From IMG/VR virus record IMGVR_UViG_3300025151_005770, positions 1 to 30,356 of that record: a stretch of DNA of 30,356 nt; one strand, 5' to 3'. The notes beneath the pieces were generated by a model. That model saw only the letters and a program-made list of their open reading frames with translations, searched no databases and was not told where the DNA came from. Of the stretch, positions 6,162 through 22,457 are shown piece by piece. Every line of letters starts with the position of its first letter. The stretch's first letter is position 1. The stretch comes from a virus. The translations under genes were made by a program, and so were the position numbers.

Positions 6162-7862
6162 ATGGCAGATAAAAACTATTTCGTATCGATGAAAAACCAC
6201 TTTATTGACAGTGATGTTTCGGTAGGAGACTGGACAACAGAAGATCAAAGAGCAGAACTAGTCACAGCAGGAGCAACAATCGTAAATGAATTTGCTAATA
6301 TTGATGGCGGATTTTACGAGTTGACTATAGACGAAGCAAACATAGGTAATATTACAGGCTTAGCAAATGTTAAGGCATCAGAATTAGTAGGAGCAGGTTC
6401 AAACGTATCGACTCTTGCTATTAGCGAGTCAACAACAGAATGGCATAAGCAAAGATTAGTTACTAGAAATCTTCCTCTAAGAGATACTTTCGATCCTGTT
6501 TACGAAGGTGATAACGCAACCGTTTATATTATAGACAGTGGCATAGATGTTGATCATCCAGAACTAGCAAATGCTACAGTTCAAAAAGTTCACAATCCAA
6601 CAAACGGTGGTTACAACGATTTTATAGCAGGTGGCGGTGACGCAACAACATTTACAGTTGAAGACGATCATGGTCACGGTACAGCAATGGCAAGTTTAAT
6701 TGGCGGCGAAAACTTAGGTGTTGCCAGACATGCCAAACTTGGCGCAGTAAAAGTTAGTGGAGCAAATGGCTCTGCTGATATTTCAGACGTTGCCAAAGGT
6801 GTTAACTCTATGTTTGTACATAGAGCATGGGAAACAGCAAAAGACTCCGGTGGTACATACGCAACAGCAGTAGCATTAATGGCGTTTACATTTCCTAAAT
6901 CAGAAGCATTAGATAGACTTGTAACTTATATGTGGAATAGACGTTTTATAGTAGTTGCCGCGGCAGGTAATGCCGGTGGCGATGTTGATAATTTTTCACC
7001 AGCAGGCCTTAACAGTATTCTTACAGTAGGTGCCGCTGACAGTTCAGATAACGTACCATCATTTTCAAATGACGCAGGATCTGTAGTTGAACAAGGTACA
7101 GGACTACAAACAAATGGTGGTGAAGAAGTTGACGTATTTGCTCCAGGTGTTGGTATTAATATAGCCACAATAGCAAATAGAAATACAGGCGGTGGTTATG
7201 ACGCAGTAGCAGAAGAAGATTTAGTTGCTCAAGGATCAGGTACTAGTGCCTCAGCCGCAATAGTAGCCGGTGTAACAGCAATAGCAGTTCAAAGAAATCC
7301 AGGTTACAAGTCCGAACAAGTTAAAGACTTTGTACAATCACAATCCTTAACAGGAATGTTATTCCAAGATCCAGGATTATATAGTACAACACCAAATAAC
7401 ATTGTATATTTAGAAAATGAATATTATGCTACAGTTTGGAATACTAATCCAGGCTCATTAGGTGAAACATTAATCAGTGCCGCAAGTAGTGTTGATATTG
7501 CTTTAGACGTAGCGAACACAGTTACTGGTATTGCTAGTTCAGAGTTTGCCGCATTACCGCCAGCATTACAGTTAAGTGGTAACGCAACAGACGGTTGGAA
7601 ATTAACAGCGAATACATCAGTAACATCAACCTTAACAGAAGATAAGATTTATAACTTTATCTTAACAGCGACCAAAAACGATAACACAGAATTTAATAGG
7701 CACTTTGCTTATGCGTTCTATACAGGTACTGAAATCACAGATGACAAAAGAGATAGTGCCTCAGAAACATACTTTGTTGTTGATGGTAGTGATGTAGATG
7801 AAGTAATCTACATTAAAGGTATGCAAGCCGCATTTGGTGGTGGTAACTTCCAACTTAAATAA
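6162..7862 (+). CDS. Subtilisin-like (S8) serine protease with C-terminal Ig-like domain, probably virion-associated
   Basis: A 566-residue protein. Residues about 25-80 resemble a degenerate I9-type propeptide. The S8 catalytic core follows with all active-site elements: Asp125 in YIIDSGID, His172 in HGHGTAMAS, oxyanion Asn270 in AAAGNAGG, and Ser362 in GSGTSAS. Residues about 420-530 look like a cadherin/Ig-type beta domain common in phage surface proteins (PPALQLSG, YNFILTAT). No signal peptide is seen, so export by the virion is more likely than Sec. It sits after PAAR and the PP-loop protein and ends at a strong terminator. It could process virion proteins, degrade surface proteins during adsorption, or be an injected protein. 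Confidence 0.9.
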   Translation: MADKNYFVSMKNHFIDSDVSVGDWTTEDQRAELVTAGATIVNEFANIDGGFYELTIDEANIGNITGLANVKASELVGAGSNVSTLAISESTTEWHKQRLVTRNLPLRDTFDPVYEGDNATVYIIDSGIDVDHPELANATVQKVHNPTNGGYNDFIAGGGDATTFTVEDDHGHGTAMASLIGGENLGVARHAKLGAVKVSGANGSADISDVAKGVNSMFVHRAWETAKDSGGTYATAVALMAFTFPKSEALDRLVTYMWNRRFIVVAAAGNAGGDVDNFSPAGLNSILTVGAADSSDNVPSFSNDAGSVVEQGTGLQTNGGEEVDVFAPGVGINIATIANRNTGGGYDAVAEEDLVAQGSGTSASAAIVAGVTAIAVQRNPGYKSEQVKDFVQSQSLTGMLFQDPGLYSTTPNNIVYLENEYYATVWNTNPGSLGETLISAASSVDIALDVANTVTGIASSEFAALPPALQLSGNATDGWKLTANTSVTSTLTEDKIYNFILTATKNDNTEFNRHFAYAFYTGTEITDDKRDSASETYFVVDGSDVDEVIYIKGMQAAFGGGNFQLK

Positions 7863-10432: not shown

Positions 10433-10508
10433 GCCACCGTAACTCAGTTGGTAGAGTAACTGATTTGTAATCAGTAGGTCGTCAGTTCGAGTCTGACCGG
10501 TGGCTCCA
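10433..10508 (+). tRNA. tRNA-Thr (anticodon UGU), CCA encoded
   Basis: A 76-nt cloverleaf. The acceptor stem GCCACCG pairs with CGGTGGC, the discriminator is T, and CCA is encoded (10506-10508). The D-arm has AGTTGGTAGAG-type bases, the anticodon stem CTGAT/ATCAG holds loop TTTGTAA (anticodon TGT), and the T-loop is GTTCGAGTC. All stems look intact, so it is probably functional. It reads ACA (and ACN by wobble), a codon visibly common in this AT-rich phage. It is the only tRNA seen in the window. Confidence 0.96.
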
Positions 10509-10549: not shown

Positions 10550-11638
10550 ATGGCACGGAATAAAAAACCAAGAAAGAAAAAGTACTCAGGTCCTAAGACA
10601 ACTGAACAAACTAACAACTTAGAACCAACTCAAGTTTTAGACCAAGCAAACTTAACACCTGAACAAATTCAAGCAGAAGAAATTTTGTTCAGTCTATTAG
10701 AAAGAAAAATTGAAATACCTGTAGAAGCATTTCAAGGCAAACACTTATTCATTGCCACGCCATGTTACGGCGGACAAGTAGCAGAACCCTACTTAAGAAG
10801 TTTAGTAAGACTAATTCTATTAATGAATAGATTTAATGTCGAATTTACCCTAAGCACTCTAGCAAATGAAAGTTTGATTACAAGAGGTAGAAATACACTT
10901 GTAAGTTTCTTTATGGAAAATGAAAAAGCAACACATTTGTTTTTTATTGATGCTGATATCGAATATCACCCAGAAGATGTATTAAGAATGTTAGCATACG
11001 ATAAGCCAGTAATTACAGGAGCATATCCTAAAAAAGCAATAAACTGGGACAGCATTATAAATGCCGCAAGGTCGCCTAATTTAAATGAAACAGCAGAAAC
11101 TATCGAAGGGCATAGTGCTAATTATGTTACTAACTTTGATTATCCTGTTGACGAGAACGGTGAGAAAGTTCCTAATGTACAAATAGCAGATAATTTGATT
11201 AAACTATTAGATGCTGGCACAGGCTTTATGATGATTAAAAAAGAAGTCATACAAAAAATGTTTGACTCCTATCCTGAAACAAAATATAACAACGACTTAA
11301 ACATTGATAATAAGTTTGAGCCTTTTATGTATGCTTTGTTTGATTGTATCATTGATCCGGAAAGTAGACGTTACTTGTCAGAGGACTACACTTTCTGTAG
11401 ACGTTGGCAACAAATAGGTGGCGAAATATGGTTAGATCCTAGAGTAGCACTTAACCACGTTGGACATTATACATTCCGCGGAAATGTTAGAAAAATGCTT
11501 ACCGGAGAGTCAACATCAAGTAATTATCAGTCTCCTGATCAAAGACCATTTGTAGTAGGGGCGTCGGATAAGCAAAAGGAACAAGCACCACAACCTCCGC
11601 AACAACAAAATAAAATACAATTAAGTAAAAAGAAATGA
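10550..11638 (+). CDS. Glycosyltransferase-like protein (GT-A fold, DxD)
   Basis: A 362-residue protein. It has a basic N-terminal tail (MARNKKPRKKKYSG) and a helical linker. A GT-A-like domain starts near residue 65 (LFIATPCYGGQV) with the metal-binding DxD at 134-136 (FFIDADIEY). Further family-like segments are GAYPKK, LDAGTGFMMIKKEV and LSEDYTFCRRW. The tail is Pro/Gln-rich (PQPPQQQ) with a Lys end. Such proteins transfer sugar from a nucleotide-sugar to DNA, protein or envelope glycans; the acceptor is unknown. It has its own late promoter and Shine-Dalgarno, and is coupled by ATGA to a second glycosyltransferase. The basic N-terminus and Q-rich C-terminus could be tethers to DNA or virion. 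Confidence 0.8.
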   Translation: MARNKKPRKKKYSGPKTTEQTNNLEPTQVLDQANLTPEQIQAEEILFSLLERKIEIPVEAFQGKHLFIATPCYGGQVAEPYLRSLVRLILLMNRFNVEFTLSTLANESLITRGRNTLVSFFMENEKATHLFFIDADIEYHPEDVLRMLAYDKPVITGAYPKKAINWDSIINAARSPNLNETAETIEGHSANYVTNFDYPVDENGEKVPNVQIADNLIKLLDAGTGFMMIKKEVIQKMFDSYPETKYNNDLNIDNKFEPFMYALFDCIIDPESRRYLSEDYTFCRRWQQIGGEIWLDPRVALNHVGHYTFRGNVRKMLTGESTSSNYQSPDQRPFVVGASDKQKEQAPQPPQQQNKIQLSKKK

Positions 11639-12453
11639 AGAAAATAAGTGTATTGTTGGCTACAAGAAGCCGTCCTAAAATGCTAGAAAAAAGCATTGAT
11701 AGTTTAATGACAAATGTTAGTGATTCAGGAAACGTTGAAATCATGTTAGGCATTGATAACGATGATCAAGAAACATTAGACTTTGTACAAAATGAAGAGT
11801 TTCAGAATAAATTACAAGATGAATACAACGTTGACGTTCAAGCAATTTTGTTTGATAGATTAGGATATAAAAATCTTCATCAATACATGAATCAACTTTG
11901 GGGTCAAGCACACGGCGAGTGGCTAATGCTATGGAACGACGATGCTATTATGGAAACAAAAGATTGGGATTTAGAGATTGGCAAATACGATGATCAATTT
12001 GCTTTATTAAAATTTAATCAAGTTAATCACACTCATCCGTACGCATTGTTTCCTGTAATACCCACAGACTGGTGTAGACTAATCGGTAATTTTAGTCTAA
12101 ACGCACAAAACGATGCTTGGTTAAATCTTATTGCTAAGCCATTAGGTATAATTAAAGATATACCTGTAGACGTGTTACATGATAGATTTGATTTAACAGG
12201 CAACAACGATGATGACATATTTAGAAGCAGAGAATACGCAGAAGGCAATCCTGAAGACCCAGGTGATCTAATGAATCAGGCTATGATTCAAACTCGCGAT
12301 GCTATTACACATAAAATAGCATGGTACTGCGACAGAATTGGGCAAAAAGAAACAAGCGAGTATTTTGCCAAAGTCAAGCAAGGCGAAATTGATCCTTACG
12401 AGGATTGGAAGCAAATCAGAGAAGAATCGGTAGGATTAGGCTCTGGATTATAA
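11635..12453 (+). CDS. Family 2-like glycosyltransferase
   Basis: A 272-residue protein. The N-terminus ISVLLATRSRPKMLEKSIDSL is a GT2-type nucleotide-binding start, followed by IMLGIDNDD. The acidic metal-binding region is near residues 98-105 (LWNDDAIME). The C-terminal third is helical and acidic. It probably works with the preceding gene (ATGA overlap) on the same glycan or modified base. The acceptor cannot be read from the sequence. A late promoter for the next gene begins inside its stop region (12449). Confidence 0.8.
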   Translation: MKKISVLLATRSRPKMLEKSIDSLMTNVSDSGNVEIMLGIDNDDQETLDFVQNEEFQNKLQDEYNVDVQAILFDRLGYKNLHQYMNQLWGQAHGEWLMLWNDDAIMETKDWDLEIGKYDDQFALLKFNQVNHTHPYALFPVIPTDWCRLIGNFSLNAQNDAWLNLIAKPLGIIKDIPVDVLHDRFDLTGNNDDDIFRSREYAEGNPEDPGDLMNQAMIQTRDAITHKIAWYCDRIGQKETSEYFAKVKQGEIDPYEDWKQIREESVGLGSGL

Positions 12454-12671: not shown

Positions 12672-12700
12672 TTGACAACTACCATAAATAGTAGTATAAT
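12672..12700 (+). promoter_or_regulatory. Consensus sigma70 promoter with embedded late box
   Basis: TTGACA (12672-12677), a 17-nt spacer, then TATAAT (12695-12700): a perfect housekeeping consensus. Inside the spacer lies CATAAATA (12683-12690), a late box. The predicted sigma70 +1 is about 12707, 2 nt before the ATG at 12709; the late +1 is about 12696. This suggests early and late expression of the gene at 12709, with a near-leaderless early transcript. Confidence 0.85.
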
Positions 12701-12708
12701 AGGTTATT

Positions 12709-13134
12709 ATGGAAGAAAAAAGATATAAAATATTCGTATACGGTACACTGAAATCAGGCAACTCTACACGAGGTTTAGACGGCATGGGTTTTGAAGGTAT
12801 CGATATGAAAAAAGTCGGCGTAGCAGTTACCACAGAACGTAAATTCAATATGGTAGATCTAGGCTCATTTCCAGGTGTTATCATTAATGGTACACACGAC
12901 GTTTCAGGTGAAGTTTGGGAAGGTGGTAAGGACTTTTTAGAACTATGTGATAGCATAGAAGGCCATCAAGGGGACAAACTTAAAAACTTTTATCACAGAG
13001 ATTTAGTTAATACTACAGAAGGCAAAGCATTCATCTATCATTTAGATCCATGGTATTGGAGTGATTACGGAGACGATTATGAAAATGTTTCTAGTATCAC
13101 ATTATCCAATAACACTTTAACTTGGAACAGATAA
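12709..13134 (+). CDS. Gamma-glutamylcyclotransferase-like (GGCT/AIG2) protein
   Basis: A 141-residue protein. It has the family signature YGTLKSG (11-17), which binds the gamma-glutamyl group, and the FPGVI strand (54-58). The likely catalytic Glu84 lies in CDSIEGH, and the C-terminal strand KAFIYHLD closes the barrel. GGCT-like enzymes release 5-oxoproline from gamma-glutamyl amines or peptides. The exact substrate in phages is not known; glutathione turnover or gamma-glutamylamine processing are the usual options. It follows a perfect sigma70 promoter, which suggests early expression. The stop overlaps the deformylase ATG (TAATG). Confidence 0.88.
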   Translation: MEEKRYKIFVYGTLKSGNSTRGLDGMGFEGIDMKKVGVAVTTERKFNMVDLGSFPGVIINGTHDVSGEVWEGGKDFLELCDSIEGHQGDKLKNFYHRDLVNTTEGKAFIYHLDPWYWSDYGDDYENVSSITLSNNTLTWNR

Positions 13135-13679
13135 TGGAGTACGCAAACAAATGGAATACTACTTTAGTAGAACCTAAACACCCAGCATTACATAATCCTT
13201 GTACAATAGATCCATTAGAAACTGACATAGTCTGGCAAACAGTTGAACAAGAAATGTTCAAACTAATGCGTGAAAGATTAGGCATAGGATTGGCCGCACC
13301 TCAGTTAGGAAATCCTGTAAACATGTTTGTAATGACACATAGTACCGAAGGAGACATTGCTGTATACAATCCAAAAATCATAAACCAATCAGAAGAAACA
13401 AGTTGTATAGAAGAAGGTTGTTTAACATTTCCAGGCTTATTTTTCCATGTAACAAGACCAGAAGCAGTACAAGTTACATTTCAAAATAGAAAAGGCGAAG
13501 AGCAAAGCATGGAACTAACCGGCATGGATTCAAGATGCTTTCAGCATGAAACGGATCATCTTCATGGCGTTCTTAATTTGTCTTATATAAGCGACTTCAA
13601 ACTTCAACGTGCTATAAAGAAACGCGATAAACTTGTAAAGAAATTTTCTAACATGAAGAAAAGTGTTAAACGTGTATGA
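13134..13679 (+). CDS. def: Peptide deformylase
   Basis: Removes the N-formyl group from nascent proteins. The 181 residues carry all three signature motifs: GIGLAAPQ (50-57), EEGCLTFPG with metal-ligand C96, and QHETDH (137-142), whose histidines bind the metal and whose Glu is catalytic. The C-terminal helix is basic, perhaps for ribosome binding. The start is the ATG inside TAATG after the GGCT gene; a TTG 12 nt upstream is less likely. The stop overlaps the GH6 gene by 4 nt. Deformylases are known from marine cyanophages. Here it sits one gene downstream of the bL33 homologue, giving a small translation-related cluster. Confidence 0.95.
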   Translation: MEYANKWNTTLVEPKHPALHNPCTIDPLETDIVWQTVEQEMFKLMRERLGIGLAAPQLGNPVNMFVMTHSTEGDIAVYNPKIINQSEETSCIEEGCLTFPGLFFHVTRPEAVQVTFQNRKGEEQSMELTGMDSRCFQHETDHLHGVLNLSYISDFKLQRAIKKRDKLVKKFSNMKKSVKRV

Positions 13680-14530
13680 AGTATCCATTTTGGGTCTTTG
13701 ATTGGAACCGTGTAAAAGATTATCAAGACCAATATCCGCTCACAAAAGAAATATTTAAATACCCTTTAAGCCTTTGGTACGGTAACCGTAGTGCTAAACC
13801 TATTAAAAATTTACATAAAAGTTTAACTAGATTATTTAAACGTAGTGGTGATAAATTACCAATACTAGTTCTTTACAATATGCCTAATAGAGATATTGGT
13901 CAATACAGTAAAGGTGGTGCTCAAACACAAGAAGAATATTTACAATTTATTAAAGATTTCAGTATAGGTATTAAAGACCATGCTCCTATAGTAATTTTTG
14001 AACCTGATGCTATACCTCATTTAACACATCTTAACAAAAAAGAAGCAAAAGAAAGAATACAATTAATTAAAAAAGCATTAGAAATACTTTCTAAGACAAA
14101 TGCTTTAATATACATAGATGTAGGCCACAGTAATTGGTTAAGTCCTGAAGAAGTATCTAAATTCTTAAATAAAGTTACCAATCCTAGGGTAAGAGGCTTC
14201 TCAGTTAATGTAAGTAATTATAGAACAACATTAGAGTCGGCAAAGTGGGCAAATAAAATATGCGAACTAAGGCCACAGGACTATTATGTTATAGACACTA
14301 GTCGCAACGGTAATGGGCCACATGGAAACGAGTGGTGTAATCCGCCAGGTAGAGCATTAGGAGAACCACCTACTTGTGACACTGGATTAGAAAAATGCGA
14401 TGCTTACCTTTGGATTAAAATACCAGGTGAAAGTGACGGCAAAGGCAATGGCGGACCTCGTGCCGGAAGGATGTGGGGAGAGATGGCAGAAGAATTAGTT
14501 AGGAATACGGAATGGATAAAAACTTTATAG
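13676..14530 (+). CDS. Glycoside hydrolase family 6 (cellulase/cellobiohydrolase family)
   Basis: A 284-residue, catalytic-domain-only GH6 protein. The GH6 blocks appear in order: YNMPNRDIGQYSKGG (Asp73, counterpart of the pKa-modulating Asp), IFEPDAIPHL (proton donor Asp111), YIDVGHSNWL (147-155), RGFSVNVSNYR (173-183), IDTSRNGNGP (206-215), EWCNPPGRALG with PPT, and DAYLWIKIPGESDG (Asp254). These match the family closely, so hydrolysis of beta-1,4-glucan by inversion is expected if active. There is no signal peptide, no carbohydrate-binding module and no linker. It is coupled to the deformylase by ATGA and overlaps the next gene by 19 nt. It might act on host or environmental beta-glucan, on a capsule during lysis or adsorption, or on a phage-made glycan. 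Confidence 0.93.
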   Translation: MKYPFWVFDWNRVKDYQDQYPLTKEIFKYPLSLWYGNRSAKPIKNLHKSLTRLFKRSGDKLPILVLYNMPNRDIGQYSKGGAQTQEEYLQFIKDFSIGIKDHAPIVIFEPDAIPHLTHLNKKEAKERIQLIKKALEILSKTNALIYIDVGHSNWLSPEEVSKFLNKVTNPRVRGFSVNVSNYRTTLESAKWANKICELRPQDYYVIDTSRNGNGPHGNEWCNPPGRALGEPPTCDTGLEKCDAYLWIKIPGESDGKGNGGPRAGRMWGEMAEELVRNTEWIKTL

Positions 14531-15090
14531 TAATAGACAATTTTTACAATAACGTCGACGATGTTAGAGAATACGCATTAGAGCAAAATTTTCAAACAGA
14601 AGGCAATTATCCTGGCATTAGAACACTAGCAGAACCAGACCCGCAACACGGTTACTTAAAAACATTTTTTGAAAACGAAGTATTAGGAAAACCAATTTCG
14701 TATTGGCCTAGAGATTACAATACAGCATATCAATATACAACACAAGATTCTAAAACTTGGATACATCATGACGACACAGTATGGGCAGGTGTACTTTACT
14801 TAACACCTAATGCTCCTGTAGAGTCAGGAACAGCAATATACAGACATAAGCCAACAGGTATATACGAGTGGGATAGAGTTACAGATTCTCCTAGCGATTT
14901 TAACAGTTCGGATTTTTTAGGCGATAGTCACTTAGATCAATGGGAACAAATAAATTTTGTAGGCAATGTATATAATAGATTAATACTTTATAAAGGCAGT
15001 ATGTACCATCGTAGTGTACTACCTGGTTTTGGAACTGATAAATATACTGGTAGATTATTTCAAACTTTCTTTTTTGATACGGAGGATTAG
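14512..15090 (+). CDS. Fe(II)/2-oxoglutarate-type oxygenase-like protein (first of three)
   Basis: A 192-residue protein with double-stranded beta-helix features. The HxD-type iron ligands lie in WIHHDDTVWAGVLYLTP (His85/86, Asp87/88), the distal His166 in YKGSMYHRS, and Arg181 could bind 2-oxoglutarate (TGRLFQTFF). The N-terminus FIVIDNFYNNVDDVREYAL is common to this phage oxygenase type. The reaction would be hydroxylation of a protein, base or small molecule; the substrate is unknown. It overlaps the GH6 gene by 19 nt and the next oxygenase by 1 nt, so it is strongly coupled. The strand pattern is convincing, the exact subfamily is not. Confidence 0.78.
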   Translation: MDKNFIVIDNFYNNVDDVREYALEQNFQTEGNYPGIRTLAEPDPQHGYLKTFFENEVLGKPISYWPRDYNTAYQYTTQDSKTWIHHDDTVWAGVLYLTPNAPVESGTAIYRHKPTGIYEWDRVTDSPSDFNSSDFLGDSHLDQWEQINFVGNVYNRLILYKGSMYHRSVLPGFGTDKYTGRLFQTFFFDTED

Positions 15091-15770
15091 TGGACAGTTA
15101 CTGGGAATGGAATAAAGAAAATTTTCCTTGGCATTACGACCCAAGCAGTAAACAGTCTGACGTCCAGTATGTAGGTAGATTTATATCTGAACCAGAAACG
15201 TTGCTTAGAGACGGTATAAATGCGTCTAAGGACGCCTTATGCGACGAAGATGTATACGACGAAGTAAGTATCAAAGGCAAACCATATAACAAAGAAGCCG
15301 CAGAGATTATGGAAGGTTATCATAATGACCTTACTCGTGCTGGCTACACATCACATAATACAGGTGGTCGACAGACAAGAGATAAGTTACACCATGTAAT
15401 GAATTTAATGGCTGAGAGAAGTGGTTTATGGAATCCACAAATAATGTTTTTAGAACAACCGCCAGGGAAGTTTGTGCCATGGCATAGAGATAGTTACAAT
15501 AACTATAGACGTAATCATGCTAAAGTAAGCGACGACACAGAAGTAATACGTTACCTAGTACAACTAAATGACTGGAATTGGGGTCACTATGTTGCTGTAG
15601 GTAATGACGTGATACATCAATACAAAATGGGAGACATACATTGTTGGCCTGAAGGTATATATCATTGTACAGGTAATGCTGGACTATGGCCCAGATACTG
15701 TTTAACAATTACAGGTGTAGTAACACCGTCAGCATTACATCTTAACGAACCAAAAGAATTTAAAATTTAA
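15090..15770 (+). CDS. Fe(II)/2-oxoglutarate oxygenase, aspartyl/asparaginyl hydroxylase-like (second of three)
   Basis: A 226-residue protein starting at GTG (15090-15092) that overlaps the upstream TAG by one base, with a good GGAGG Shine-Dalgarno. The iron ligands are His132 and Asp134 (VPWHRDSYNNY) and the distal His192 (GIYHCTGN), with Arg202 (LWPRYCLTITG) placed to bind the 2-oxoglutarate carboxylate. The strands between them (EVIRYLVQLNDW and GHYVAVGND) fit a jelly-roll. Fold and ligand spacing resemble aspartyl/asparaginyl beta-hydroxylases. The substrate is unknown. The neighbouring ferredoxin begins one base after the stop. Confidence 0.83.
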   Translation: MDSYWEWNKENFPWHYDPSSKQSDVQYVGRFISEPETLLRDGINASKDALCDEDVYDEVSIKGKPYNKEAAEIMEGYHNDLTRAGYTSHNTGGRQTRDKLHHVMNLMAERSGLWNPQIMFLEQPPGKFVPWHRDSYNNYRRNHAKVSDDTEVIRYLVQLNDWNWGHYVAVGNDVIHQYKMGDIHCWPEGIYHCTGNAGLWPRYCLTITGVVTPSALHLNEPKEFKI

Positions 15771-16123: not shown

Positions 16124-18163
16124 ATGAACGCAAGTGACGTAATAGTAATATACCCAGGTAGATTTCATCCTTTTCACAAAGGTCATAAAGGTGTTTATGA
16201 CTTATTAAACAAAAAGTTTAAAAATGTCTACATTGCTACATCGGATAAAGTAGAAGCGGACAAATCACCTTTTGATTTTGAAGAAAAGGTCAAAATTATG
16301 AATCTAACTGGTGTTCCAACCAGTGATGTATTAAAAGTAAAACAAACATATAACGGTAATGAATATATGTCACGTTTTAATAACAGTTACGGTTTAATAT
16401 TTGCTGTAAGTGAAAAGGATATGGACGATGATCCACGTTTTAACTTTCCAGCAAGTGGTATGAGCCTTAAGAAAAATGGTGAACCAGCATACTTACAAAA
16501 ATTTACAGATTTAGATAGTGTAGAAGATATGACTAAGCACGGATACATTATGACTGTGCCAACTACCTCATTTAAAGTAGCAGGACACGACGTAAATAGT
16601 GCTAGTCAAATAAGATCTTTGCTAGGAAGTGAAAATATAGACGATGCAAAGCAGGCATTTGTTGATTTATATGATAAATATAATGAAACAGTATTTAAAA
16701 TTATACGAAATAAATTAGGTAAGAACACAATGGAAAATATAGACTTAAACGAACTAAGAAAACTAGCAGGACTTAACGAAGTCGATGTAGATCAAGACGA
16801 CGACTATTCAGATGTTCCTGGTTTTAAAGAAAAACCTATGTTTGATCAACTAGGAAAAATTATTGACAGCGACGAAATGTCTAAAGACGGTGACGACATC
16901 AAAAACCCATTAAACTCAGTTAAAACTGATGACGGTGAAGAAGTTGAAGTAAGTGTTGGTGAAGCAAAAGCACTTAAAGATATGATGGAAATGTTATCAA
17001 GTGCTAGAATGGGTGCTGAAAAATCAGCAAGAGAAAAGTTTTTAGATTCCATACAAACTTCAGAAGGCCTTCACAGCATGTTAGAATTTGCTAGATCAAA
17101 AGGTTTAGTAAAAGAAAGCGAAGTAGACGAAGGTAACGCATTTGCTAAAAAAGTTAGAGATTTAAAAGCACAAGGTAAAAAGAAAGGCGAAAAGTTTGAA
17201 GTAGACGGCGAAGAATACGCACTAGAAGATTTAGACTTAGATGACATCAGAGCAGATTTTGGTGTCGAAGAAGGCAAGGTCAAAGACATGGCTATGGATA
17301 TGGTTGATGCTTTTTACGATAAAGTTAGTGCTATGGTAGACAACAATAATGATATAGGTAAATCAATTGTAGATGCTTGGGAAGACGGTGACGAAAATCC
17401 ACCAGAGTGGGCACTAGATGACGAAGCAAGACAAATACTTATTGATGCTGGTAAAATTGGGCCAGAGCAAGAAGAGCCTGAAATGGAAGAAGCGGCAAAG
17501 CCAGACTATATAGATTTAGACGGCGATGGCGATAGAAAAGAGTCAATGAAGAAAGCCGCCAAAGACAAAAAGAAGAAAGAAGAAAGTTTTGATCCAAGAG
17601 CAGAACAAAGTCGTGAAGACGAAGCATACGAAGAATTAATGAATGCTCTTGATAAAGGTGGCGAAGAAGCATACGCAAAAGCATGTGGTTTATCCATGGA
17701 AGAACTTGATGATGAGATGAGTGAGATTGCTAGAGAAAGAAACTTACACATGGACGATGACAGAGATGAAATTATTCAGGCTCATGCCGAAGAAACTGTA
17801 GACAACGCAGATTGGAAAGACCATGGCGAAATGGATTACGATAGAGACATGGAAGAAGATTTAGATAGAATGCGTGAATTAGCAGGCATTGAAACAGACG
17901 AATCACTCATGGCTGACCCACAATTTAAGTATAACAAAAATATGTCTCACAGCCAAAACTTTGCAATCTGGAAAAAACTAAATGACGACGAATACAGAAG
18001 AGGCAACGAACCTTATCCAGATGAAAAAGAACAAAAAGCAGAGTTTGAAAGACAATACGGTCCTTTAGATGATGAAAAAGTTTCTTCAGGGAAAGATAAG
18101 GAATCAGCATCCACATTTAAAAGATTAATGAAAGCCGGTGAACCAAGAGGTGTTTTAGACTAA
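16124..18163 (+). CDS. Nucleotidyltransferase domain fused to an acidic head-scaffold-like region
   Basis: A 679-residue two-part protein. Residues 1-200 form a cytidylyltransferase/NMNAT-like domain: PGRFHPFHKGHKG carries the (H/T)xGH nucleotide-binding motif, and SASQIRSLL (159-167) resembles the C-terminal ISxTxxR-type motif. A linker with LRKLAGLNE (211-219) leads into about 460 very acidic, helical residues typical of T4-like marine head proteins: EAKALKDMMEMLSSARM, GEKFEVDGEEYAL, an IDLDGDGDRKE turn (about 463-473) followed by Lys-rich helices, and a second RMRELAGI near 582-589. LNE at 217-219 fits the (L/I)xE cleavage rule of T4 gp21-type proteases, so the two halves may be separated in the prohead. 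The enzyme might act in NAD or nucleotide metabolism or be structural. Confidence 0.8.
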   Translation: MNASDVIVIYPGRFHPFHKGHKGVYDLLNKKFKNVYIATSDKVEADKSPFDFEEKVKIMNLTGVPTSDVLKVKQTYNGNEYMSRFNNSYGLIFAVSEKDMDDDPRFNFPASGMSLKKNGEPAYLQKFTDLDSVEDMTKHGYIMTVPTTSFKVAGHDVNSASQIRSLLGSENIDDAKQAFVDLYDKYNETVFKIIRNKLGKNTMENIDLNELRKLAGLNEVDVDQDDDYSDVPGFKEKPMFDQLGKIIDSDEMSKDGDDIKNPLNSVKTDDGEEVEVSVGEAKALKDMMEMLSSARMGAEKSAREKFLDSIQTSEGLHSMLEFARSKGLVKESEVDEGNAFAKKVRDLKAQGKKKGEKFEVDGEEYALEDLDLDDIRADFGVEEGKVKDMAMDMVDAFYDKVSAMVDNNNDIGKSIVDAWEDGDENPPEWALDDEARQILIDAGKIGPEQEEPEMEEAAKPDYIDLDGDGDRKESMKKAAKDKKKKEESFDPRAEQSREDEAYEELMNALDKGGEEAYAKACGLSMEELDDEMSEIARERNLHMDDDRDEIIQAHAEETVDNADWKDHGEMDYDRDMEEDLDRMRELAGIETDESLMADPQFKYNKNMSHSQNFAIWKKLNDDEYRRGNEPYPDEKEQKAEFERQYGPLDDEKVSSGKDKESASTFKRLMKAGEPRGVLD

Positions 18164-18164
18164 G

Positions 18165-18575
18165 ATGAGTAAAGTAAGCAAAGAAGATTTAAAAAAACTA
18201 CAAGAACTAGCAGGTATCTATACAGATACGTTAAATGAAAAAGATGCTGGTGATAGCAGTAATCCTAAATTAGCAGTAGGGCACGTTGATAACGAACGTG
18301 ACATGATTAGAAGACAACTTTATCAGATGGGAACATATACTGTCGAATTAGCAAAAATGCTAAAGGACTTGCCAGACTCTGATTTCCCAAATTGGTGGCA
18401 GTCAAAAATTACAAAAGCAGGTGTATACATAAGCGATGCTAAACACTATTTAGAAAATAGCATGGCTGTACCACCTGGGGACGACATGACTAAGGACGGT
18501 ACGCAAGGTACTGTTGACGTAGTTGACCCTGACTTCGAAAGAGACGACGTAGTAGATCCATCCGGCGTTAGTTAA
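18165..18575 (+). CDS. Small head/internal-protein-like protein
   Basis: A 136-residue acidic protein. The N-terminus carries KKLQELAGIYTDTLNE (10-25), sharing the LAG(L/I) segment of the upstream fusion protein and ending in LNE, a candidate gp21-type cleavage site. The central domain (HVDNERDMIRRQLYQMG, then FPNWWQSKITKAG and ISDAKHYLE) is a helical module that, from memory, recurs in several proteins of T4-like marine phages. The tail is Asp-rich (DVVDPDFERDD). It begins 1 nt after the previous stop, without its own promoter. A capsid-targeted internal or scaffold protein is likely. Confidence 0.75.
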   Translation: MSKVSKEDLKKLQELAGIYTDTLNEKDAGDSSNPKLAVGHVDNERDMIRRQLYQMGTYTVELAKMLKDLPDSDFPNWWQSKITKAGVYISDAKHYLENSMAVPPGDDMTKDGTQGTVDVVDPDFERDDVVDPSGVS

Positions 18576-19282: not shown

Positions 19283-19504
19283 ATGAAAGTTGAAATATAT
19301 AGCAAACCACAATGTCCATACTGTGATATGGCAAAAGCATTAGCAGAACAAAAAGGTCATGATTTAACAGTTAAAATGTTAGATGAAGACTTTAGCAGAG
19401 AGCAGTTAATGGAAACTTTTCCAACTGCTAGAACATTCCCACAAATAATTGTTGACGGCGAAAAGATCGGCGGATACACAGAATATAAAAAATTAGTAGG
19501 TTAA
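19283..19504 (+). CDS. Glutaredoxin
   Basis: A 73-residue single-domain glutaredoxin. The redox site CPYC is at 11-14, the cis-proline motif TFPQI at 51-55, and the glutathione-binding GGYTE at 63-67. It reduces the C-terminal cysteine pair of NrdA (CESC) and other disulphides with glutathione. The length matches NrdH/Grx-type phage proteins, and the CPYC plus GGYTE set favours glutaredoxin over NrdH. It lies 15 kb from nrdAB under a separate late box. Its stop overlaps that of the convergent gene on the other strand. Confidence 0.95.
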   Translation: MKVEIYSKPQCPYCDMAKALAEQKGHDLTVKMLDEDFSREQLMETFPTARTFPQIIVDGEKIGGYTEYKKLVG

Positions 19505-20043
19505 CATTGAGTCGCTACGAGATGTATTCTATCCTCATTGCTGAAATTTACTGCAGAATGTAAATAGTTCGTACGCATCAAGTACGCATTTCCTGTTTCT
19601 AAATTATAGTGTTTTATTGAAATATCAGTGCCTGTGTCACTTGCTACAGGTTTCTGAGTATAGAACATTAAGAAGTTTTGATCGTTTGTTATAACGGGTA
19701 TGTGTAGGCGTAAGAGGTGTTCTGTGCCGTCATGATGAACACTATAACAAGTACGTCTTGCTTTATTCATTATACGCCATCTACAGTAATTAGGTGCTAA
19801 ACTTTGTATTAATTCGCCTATATAACGGTCTTTTATGCTGTTATTGATTACAGTAAAGTCGCTTTCTTTGTGCTGTAAATCAGCAATTTTACCTATACTA
19901 CAATCCCAATCATCATTACCTGTTACACTAGTTAAACTGATTTGCTGGTTAGGCCACAGTGGTGTTAAGCCAAGTATATACTCAACATCTTGTAATAGTT
20001 GCTTTTTATCTATTTGTAATGATAGTTTGTTTATATATTCCAT
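19501..20043 (-). CDS. Fe(II)/2-oxoglutarate oxygenase, aspartyl/asparaginyl hydroxylase-like (third of three)
   Basis: A 180-residue protein. The iron ligands are His103/His104-Asp105 (YSVHHDGTEHLLRLHIP) and His162 (TNYLHSAVN), with Arg172 (EDRIHLVA) for the 2-oxoglutarate carboxylate. The LRLHIPVITN strand and LETGNAYLM turn are typical of the aspartyl/asparaginyl hydroxylase cupin. It differs clearly from the two oxygenases at 14512 and 15090, so this is not a recent duplication. It overlaps the upstream minus-strand gene by 13 nt. The substrate is unknown. It converges on glutaredoxin with overlapping stops and no terminator between. Confidence 0.83.
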   Translation of the reverse strand: MEYINKLSLQIDKKQLLQDVEYILGLTPLWPNQQISLTSVTGNDDWDCSIGKIADLQHKESDFTVINNSIKDRYIGELIQSLAPNYCRWRIMNKARRTCYSVHHDGTEHLLRLHIPVITNDQNFLMFYTQKPVASDTGTDISIKHYNLETGNAYLMRTNYLHSAVNFSNEDRIHLVATQC

Positions 20044-20663: not shown

Positions 20664-22439
20664 TTACCACTTACGGCAACTCCAGTACCTTGCTTTTGTC
20701 TTTGGTCCTGGATTATCGCAGTTGTGTCTTGCTCTGAAACTTTTTCTGGCTTTAGGATTAGACTTACGAATTTTCATAGTCTTACCTTTAGCACTACTTC
20801 CGCCATGTCCAAAGTTTACTTTTTTAACGTTTCCTGTTTTAGGATCTTTTACATAAACTTTAAACTTCTTAACATCGCCTTGCATTGGCTTATTAAGTTT
20901 AACTTTACGTCCTTGATATTCTGCTTCATCAAGGTTTTCGTCAAAATCAAATTCTTTTTGTTCTGGTTTTGTTTTAGGATCAAACGGTAGTTCTTGTTGT
21001 ACAGGCGGTTTTTTATTAAGTATTTCACCATCTGTGCCGTAACCTGTTTCTTTTTCAAATTTTATTTTTGCTATAGCGGCTTTTTGTAAATTTTTAGGAT
21101 CCTTGAAATCCATACTAAACGTACAATTATTTTCTTTACACCAATTAATAAATTTACCTGACATTGGGAAACCATTTTTTTGTATTAAATTAATTTCTTT
21201 CTTAACTTCGTCTGGTTTAGCATACATAACCATATCGCCTTCGTCAAGTCCTGCTAATTTTTTAAGTTCAGTTATTGCTTCATCTTCTGAAACAATGCCT
21301 TCTGCTATATCGTCCCAACCAACTAAAATATTTTCTCTAACAACATGTAACACTGGTACAACAATACCTTCGCCTTCTGCTGTCTCTATCATTAATTCGT
21401 CGCCTGCTTGTATTGTTTCCTTCATTGGATGTCCTGGGTTATATCCTTTAACGTTCATATTCATATCAACATAATCCTTATATGCTGTATTTATAGCAAT
21501 ATCACTGCCGTAATTGTATGCTAACATGATATCATAAAAATCTGGATAAGGTAATTTGCCACCGCTTTTATCAAACGGTTGTCCATTTAATACAATAAAT
21601 TCTATAGTTTTGCCTGTACTAGGACTTTTAATTTTTTCTACTTCTGCTCTTTCGTTCATGTTCTCTCCCATACTAGCATGTTTGGCCGCCATATGTTTTT
21701 TATATTTTGCTGAACCTTTTTTATGCGGAGACTTTCCTTCACTAGTTAATCCTGCTTTTTTCATACCTTTAGCAACAAGGCTGGCTCTTTGTGCTCTGCC
21801 CATACTAGGGTATTCATTTTTAACATACTCTAAAGTATCCCTAGGATCTTGACCGCTCATCTTTAATTGCTTGGCTGTACTGGCCGCAAAGTCTATTACT
21901 GCTTCGTCACCTGGATAGTTATCTTTTGCTTTTTGTCTTTCTGCTTGTCGCTCATCATGATCTTTAATTTCCTTCCAACTTACTGTTTCGTTATTATAAG
22001 TTAATTCTCCATCGTCGCAACCATAATTACCAAATCCATAACAGTCTTCATCGTCTTCCACATTAGGACATTCTGGACAATGGCCGTCTACAACATACTG
22101 TGCTTCAACTTTACTGCTTCGATCTAAAGCATCCTGTAAATCTTTATATGCTTGAATTCTTTCTTCGGCATCATAGTAACCATCAGGCTGACCAATCATT
22201 TTTTCGTCTGCTTCGTTAATATCTTCGTCTAACCCAACATAGTTCCACATACTGCCATTTTTTTCATAGCCTGCCATGTAATGAGCATCATCTGAATCTA
22301 TGCCATTGTCTTTGGCCCAATGTACAATATAATAAGAACGAAGTTTTGGGTCAACGTCGGCAAATTTTGCTACAATTTCTGGGTCTGCCTTTGGTGGCTG
22401 ATAATAGTTAATTGCTTCTAGTAATGACTGAATCTTCAT
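20664..22439 (-). CDS. Large mosaic head/internal-protein-like protein
   Basis: A 591-residue protein read from the ATG at 22439, chosen because the late box sits exactly 5 nt upstream; a TTG 15 nt further out lies inside that box. The N-terminus MKIQSLLEAI resembles T4 capsid-targeting sequences (MKTYQEFIAEA type), with LLE at 6-8. Modules follow: an acidic helical region, a Cys-rich patch (GHCPECP, ~119-125), SPHKKGSAKYKKHMAAKHA (237-255), a beta-rich middle, a WCKENNC segment (~433-439) and a basic Cys module ending RARHNCDNPGPK and YWSCRKW. (L/I)xE sites at 70-72, 74-76, 398-400 (after KKLAG) and 503-505 lie near module borders, as expected for a gp21-processed polyprotein. Function: probably packaged with DNA or core. 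Confidence 0.75.
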   Translation of the reverse strand: MKIQSLLEAINYYQPPKADPEIVAKFADVDPKLRSYYIVHWAKDNGIDSDDAHYMAGYEKNGSMWNYVGLDEDINEADEKMIGQPDGYYDAEERIQAYKDLQDALDRSSKVEAQYVVDGHCPECPNVEDDEDCYGFGNYGCDDGELTYNNETVSWKEIKDHDERQAERQKAKDNYPGDEAVIDFAASTAKQLKMSGQDPRDTLEYVKNEYPSMGRAQRASLVAKGMKKAGLTSEGKSPHKKGSAKYKKHMAAKHASMGENMNERAEVEKIKSPSTGKTIEFIVLNGQPFDKSGGKLPYPDFYDIMLAYNYGSDIAINTAYKDYVDMNMNVKGYNPGHPMKETIQAGDELMIETAEGEGIVVPVLHVVRENILVGWDDIAEGIVSEDEAITELKKLAGLDEGDMVMYAKPDEVKKEINLIQKNGFPMSGKFINWCKENNCTFSMDFKDPKNLQKAAIAKIKFEKETGYGTDGEILNKKPPVQQELPFDPKTKPEQKEFDFDENLDEAEYQGRKVKLNKPMQGDVKKFKVYVKDPKTGNVKKVNFGHGGSSAKGKTMKIRKSNPKARKSFRARHNCDNPGPKTKARYWSCRKW

Positions 22440-22444
22440 ACTAG

Positions 22445-22452
22445 TATTTATC
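22445..22452 (-). promoter_or_regulatory. Late promoter box with TAAATA-N5-ATG spacing (mosaic head-type gene)
   Basis: On the minus strand GATAAATA, then CTAGT, then the ATG at 22439. No Shine-Dalgarno. It fixes the start of the mosaic gene. Confidence 0.75.
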
Positions 22453-22457
22453 AAGAA

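Follow-up and report, generated by a model that had tools for sequence, protein, structure and literature searches.

Enzymes of glycoside hydrolase family 6 (GH6) are familiar as secreted cellulases, of which Mycobacterium tuberculosis (Mtb) Cel6 (1up0) and T. fusca Cel6A (1tml) are the closest to the protein described here. In viruses, the open-licence literature searched contains one report of GH6, on viral scaffolds from the Mariana Trench, where the gene was presented as an auxiliary metabolic gene (AMG) transferred from bacteria (PMC8725595). The cellulases gp094 and gp095 of Erwinia phage S6 belong to GH48/GH5, are multidomain proteins and have been proposed to sit on the particle, and a phage can meet bacterial cellulose both as a genuine barrier and as its receptor (PMC9544554). 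The present analysis concerns a GH6 gene in a 30,356-nucleotide stretch of DNA (hereinafter, the window), positions 1 to 30,356 of the IMG/VR virus record IMGVR_UViG_3300025151_005770.

The open reading frame at 13,676–14,530 (plus strand, ATG start, 284 aa), a bare, unsignalled catalytic domain of the endoglucanase type, matches Pfam PF01341 (Glyco_hydro_6) with E=3.1e-52 and 178.7 bits, far above the cut-off of 27, the alignment covering residues 21–258 against positions 16–298 of the 305-position profile. A search of PDB sequences with this protein retrieves 1up0 (E=1.9e-53) and T. fusca Cel6A (3.8e-50), and the AlphaFold model, for which the input alignment consisted of 51 phage sequences (pLDDT 86.3, pTM 0.89), has 1up0 as its top Foldseek match (TM 0.86, E=1.5e-26). 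Ranks 1–46 of the Foldseek search are all GH6 enzymes or GH6-derived engineered scaffolds, with scores falling steeply beyond them, and resemblance by chance is ruled out. The longer cellobiohydrolases fit the model less well than endoglucanases do; by length and best matches, the phage protein is predicted to be of the latter kind, presumably with an open cleft. The four catalytic aspartates, Asp73 (codon 13,892–13,894), the acid Asp111 (14,006–14,008), Asp148 (14,117–14,119) and Asp254 (14,435–14,437), are the equivalents of T. fusca D79, D117, D156 and D265 (for the roles of the acid and the water-wire Asp in GH6, see PMC6091422) and are invariant in all 63 distinct phage sequences. The residues matching T. 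fusca Y73, R78, W41, W162, N190, W231, K259 and E263 are likewise invariant, and the H159 equivalent is conserved in 62. The absence of a catalytic-water serine at K79 (S85 in T. fusca) was considered and set aside as a distinctive feature, given that other GH6 also have A, G, K or H in this column; a serine is retained one position before it. Because the catalytic residues are conserved, the protein is predicted to be catalytically intact and active on beta-1,4-glucan, and the conserved subsite residues point to beta-1,4-glucan as the probable class of host substrate. The complete GH6 domain with its catalytic aspartates, recognized in the first-pass annotation, was borne out by the profile search, by the alignment, in which no catalytic aspartate is missing from any of the 63 sequences, and by the predicted fold.

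It had also been noted that the domain is bare and lacks a secretion signal, and here too the annotation holds. No signal peptide was detected in the GH6 protein, which starts at the catalytic domain and has no upstream coding room: an in-frame TAA (13,667–13,669) lies three codons upstream of the ATG, and at most nine open codons precede the start in 24 related loci. Nor was a carbohydrate-binding module (CBM), a tail domain or a fusion to a tail protein found. The two disulfides of the T. fusca structure join C80 to C125 and C232 to C267, and cellular GH6 have the corresponding cysteine pairs. The equivalent of C80 is lost in all 63 phage sequences, that of C125 in 62 and that of C267 in 48, with a cysteine near C125 in one sequence and near C267 in 15, whereas nearly all of the cellular GH6 sequences checked retain the cysteines at C80, C125 and C267; C221 (the equivalent of C232) and a new cysteine, C241, occur in every phage sequence. 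Judging from these alignments, phage GH6 lacks one or both disulfides of its secreted relatives, and most members lack both, so that neither of the traits of secreted bacterial GH6, the signal peptide and the two structural disulfides, is found in full. Such loss would suit folding in a reducing compartment, although folding in the cytoplasm does not prove that the enzyme acts there.

Two scans of IMG/VR located GH6 relatives on at least about 80 contigs, at 48–90% identity, and 76 loci were compared. These relatives are bare domains of ~280 aa, with a short extension in a few; no family for the protein was found in PHROGs or NCBIfam and no GH6 among the BFVD viral structures. The longest relative, G003, comprises 339,794 bases and encodes a T4-type head module, gp20-gp21-gp22-gp23, in which gp23 matches PF07068 with E=2e-81; its major capsid protein and portal are 70% and 53% identical, respectively, to those of Pseudomonas jumbo phage PA5oct and related Arenbergviridae. 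Because the window contains no head genes, its own placement in this clade rests on shared gene order. The clade is presumably of aquatic origin, judging by the sample numbers, and the tRNAs gave no help toward the identity of the host. To assess whether GH6 is a core gene, contigs of the clade were retrieved independently via the marker f3, a cytidylyltransferase-like gene. GH6 is present in 48 of 60 clade loci and the other 12 stop 0–1.9 kb past f3, where GH6 begins in relatives; the gene is present in all 48 whose sequence clearly extends across the locus, and the 60 f3-marked loci include no clear counter-example, that is, a spanning clade contig without GH6. By this count, GH6 would seem to belong to the core genes of these uncultured T4-like jumbo phages, and the dN/dS values of 0.04–0.13 between close GH6 pairs indicate strong purifying selection.

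The phylogeny of 50 phage representatives and 25 other GH6, the cellular ones mainly from Actinomycetota along with plasmid-borne genes, separates the 50 phage representatives from the others by one branch of length 1.31 (SH-aLRT 100), so that the tree proposed in the first-pass annotation does recover the phage members as a clade of their own. With respect to an origin from a host gene, what is seen is this single phage clade on a long branch, against a cellular sampling drawn mainly from Actinomycetota and plasmids. The GH6 of Streptomyces phage Gilgamesh and of MT836874 group among the cellular sequences. Among 50,697 phage records, GH6 matches are confined to Gilgamesh (two records) and a faecal contig, and hence no isolated T4-like phage there carries the gene; relatives of these two GH6 are few in IMG/VR, seven for Gilgamesh and one for the faecal contig. 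A GTDB scan confined to phage-derived patterns matched Glycomyces alone.

The first gene of the operon encodes a gamma-glutamyl cyclotransferase-like protein (GGACT, PF06094; 12,709–13,134, plus strand), and is followed by peptide deformylase (PDF, PF01327; 13,134–13,679, plus strand; ATG at 13,134, with a longer frame from TTG at 13,122), the stop of which overlaps the GH6 start in the ATGA at 13,676–13,679. The GGACT, PDF and GH6 frames overlap, and the window has no terminator-like site between them. The next gene (14,512–15,090, plus strand), encoding a DUF6445 protein with a match to the PHROG 'minor coat protein', overlaps the GH6 stop and is probably on the same transcript; it is followed by f14 (15,090–15,770, plus strand), a conserved protein with no family match. 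The overlaps behind the translational coupling of GH6 claimed in the first-pass annotation are real with respect to PDF and the gene at 14,512, but the 'oxygenases' were not confirmed, the downstream frames being the DUF6445 gene and f14. A clear Asp/Arg hydroxylase, also aspartyl/asparaginyl hydroxylase-like, is encoded at 19,501–20,043 on the minus strand, and proteins of uncertain target, this one and those of the DUF6445 region (14,512–15,770), flank GH6. Upstream lie two conserved neighbours, a GT-B glycosyltransferase-like gene (PHROG 1574; 10,550–11,638, plus strand), which is likely transcribed separately from GH6, and a GT-A glycosyltransferase-like gene (11,635–12,453, plus strand). 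Across the 76 loci, one PDF family is found on 65 contigs, mostly directly upstream of GH6, and two glycosyltransferase-like families on ~50. Elsewhere in the clade, the operon partners are an Rv2179c-like 3'-5' exonuclease, an ATP-dependent DNA ligase, SprT and an HD-domain protein, all of which are early-type.

Several other features of these neighbourhoods deserve mention. A tRNA-Thr (TGT) at 10,433–10,508 directly precedes the glycosyltransferase genes, and the same tRNA is close to GH6 in G003 and G001. The window also encodes a PAAR-motif protein (PF05488; 4,713–4,976), a probable tail spike tip, near ribonucleotide reductase genes; a subtilase-family protease of 566 aa (6,162–7,862; PF00082, E=4.5e-30); and the UV-endonuclease UvdE (PF03851; 29,736–30,356), interrupted by the window end. 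Two adjacent fatty-acid-desaturase-like genes are near GH6 in G003 (L117:16932-18508), and in the L066 lineage a desaturase (PF00487) is upstream of it; a possible role of these enzymes is membrane remodelling. The motif [LI]RKLAG[IL], or close variants, occurs in the window neighbours at 16,124–18,163, 18,165–18,575 and 20,664–22,454, in L122:10962-12074 and C-terminally in the putative gp22-like scaffold protein of G003 (five proteins, against 1.2 in shuffles), and may be a prohead-core targeting signal. Targeting of GH6 to the virion by LRKLAG[IL] was considered and rejected: the motif is in f3, f1 and the scaffold protein and absent from GH6.

The operon is headed by a perfect sigma-70 promoter (TTGACA-17 nt-TATAAT; 12,672–12,700, plus strand), 1.0 kb before GH6, and a promoter is conserved ahead of the GGACT gene in relatives. 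Forty-five representatives extend far enough upstream to be assessed. A sigma-70 site with no more than one mismatch lies on the same strand within 2.6 kb upstream in 38 of them and is perfect in 29, as against four on the opposite strand (none perfect), about four in shuffled sequence and one or two before the neighbouring control families f1, f3 and f4. The late promoters appear to be of a different kind. The T4 consensus TATAAATA was rejected as the late promoter of these phages, being rare, the enriched motif instead being GATAAATA, which occurs before genes in G003 38 times against 2.5 expected; because it is enriched and precedes structural genes (portal, sheath-like, tube-like and fibre-like), we regard it as marking late promoters. 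The window has a copy at 15,037, ahead of f14. Late-type motifs precede GH6 in three of 76 loci and PDF in eight of 66, compared with 27 of 62 for f3 and 28 of 47 for f7. Given the sigma-70 sites, the scarcity of late motifs and the early-type partners, GH6 is predicted to belong to an early operon in the majority of lineages. The L044 group departs from this pattern, lacking a sigma-70 site close by and having a late-like motif 4.9 kb upstream, and in the window a late-like CATAAATA (12,683–12,690) lies in the spacer of the sigma-70 promoter; both allow for late or continued expression, and promoters 1–2.5 kb upstream do not prove co-transcription with GH6. The contrast between sigma-70 sites and GATAAATA offers a means of timing genes in these uncultured jumbo phages.

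So what could such an enzyme be doing? The hypothesis that we tentatively put forward as the best explanation, at somewhat less than an even chance, is that it is an early, cytoplasmic, inverting GH6 endo-beta-1,4-glucanase with a core function, which cuts a host beta-1,4-glucan and is freed at lysis. The enzyme would be produced in the host cytoplasm, and fold there, from early infection on, and would cleave a beta-1,4-linked glucan on the cytoplasmic side, the likeliest target being a nascent or lipid-linked surface polysaccharide, or a cello-oligosaccharide. The synthesis of envelope or matrix glucan by the host might then be dismantled while the phage glycosyltransferases and other envelope-acting enzymes are at work, and lysis would finally release the enzyme onto the neighbouring matrix. 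We infer the activity, the cleavage on the cytoplasmic side and the release onto the matrix alike, and we know of no cytoplasmic substrate for a GH6 of this kind. The alternative closest to this scenario, which we regard as unlikely but worth serious consideration, is that the protein merely builds up in the cytoplasm and, after lysis, cuts a cellulose-like matrix or capsule, allowing virions to spread. Such a matrix degrader would need no signal peptide, would retain the substrate-binding residues and would have a purpose where cellulose acts as phage barrier and receptor (PMC9544554), and the promoter in the window does include the late-like motif; yet one would look for a late motif ahead of an enzyme needed solely at lysis, whereas early promoters are conserved and late motifs few ahead of PDF-GH6, and the loss of stabilizing disulfides is odd for an extracellular enzyme. 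The lysis role suggested in the first-pass annotation is accordingly possible insofar as the protein would be set free at lysis whatever its role, but late control of the operon is not a consistent feature.

The two other roles in that annotation fare worse. An AMG that would convert cello-oligosaccharides imported by the host into sugars fuelling phage replication is improbable, notwithstanding the cytoplasmic, early character that metabolic takeover predicts and the earlier AMG label of a viral-scaffold GH6 (PMC8725595): patchiness would be expected, and the gene is instead an apparent core gene, present in 48 of 48 spanning contigs, in a clade separated by a long branch from the sampled cellular GH6. 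No GH1 or GH3 beta-glucosidase, the two partner families searched for, was found in 20 long contigs. This also counts against an AMG, as does the fact that GH6 endoglucanases yield oligosaccharides, not glucose. Even less probable is a virion-associated depolymerase that clears a way through the capsule or matrix of the host at entry, the precedents being the location of the CBM-bearing Gilgamesh GH6 in a tail module and the proposed place of the S6 cellulases on the particle (PMC9544554). Such a depolymerase would be expected to be fused to or clustered with tail proteins and expressed late; the phage GH6 is bare and without an anchor, has early-type neighbours and sigma-70 early promoters, and rarely has the late motif ahead of it. 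At the bottom of the scale, we would put a catalytically idle GH6 kept for another role, for example, glycan or protein binding: the active-site loops of the model (residues 76–78 and 212–220) are of low confidence, as this reading might have it, but the catalytic and subsite residues are all invariant in the 63 sequences. Overall, the observation in the first-pass annotation is confirmed and its interpretation partly supported.

A bolder proposition, on which we would stake somewhat less, is that the aquatic hosts make or keep a cytoplasmic or membrane-face beta-1,4-glucan that the phage must cut early, GH6 having thereby turned into an obligate intracellular takeover protein. The data suggest that glucan cutting is a basic step of infection and not a borrowed extra. 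That a clade keeps an unsignalled GH6 under early promoters, as an apparent core gene with most of the usual disulfides lost, points to an undescribed step involving beta-1,4-glucan in the infection of aquatic bacteria, and it cautions that not every viral glycoside hydrolase is an AMG.

How, then, does this lineage compare with the known systems? The open-licence papers searched describe no GH6 lineage that is specific to phages, lies in an early operon and is without the usual disulfides, and the present one appears to be undescribed. No GH6 was found in PA5oct, which is among the closest isolated phages to G003, and the cellulases of Erwinia phage S6 also target beta-1,4-glucan but belong to other GH families. 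The Mariana Trench GH6 is likewise in viral DNA; it can be set against the phage clade by its description only. Gilgamesh gp72 is also a phage-encoded GH6, but it is a 444-aa protein with a CBM_4_9, encoded beside minor tail proteins, and by its tree position among cellular GH6 is best regarded as an independent capture. The closest likeness is to Mtb Cel6 and T. fusca Cel6A, with which the phage enzyme has in common the fold (TM 0.86 and 0.83, respectively), the catalytic aspartates, the subsite tryptophans and a similar length, at ~33–37% identity, and from which it differs in having no signal peptide, in lacking one or both disulfides and in forming a separate clade.
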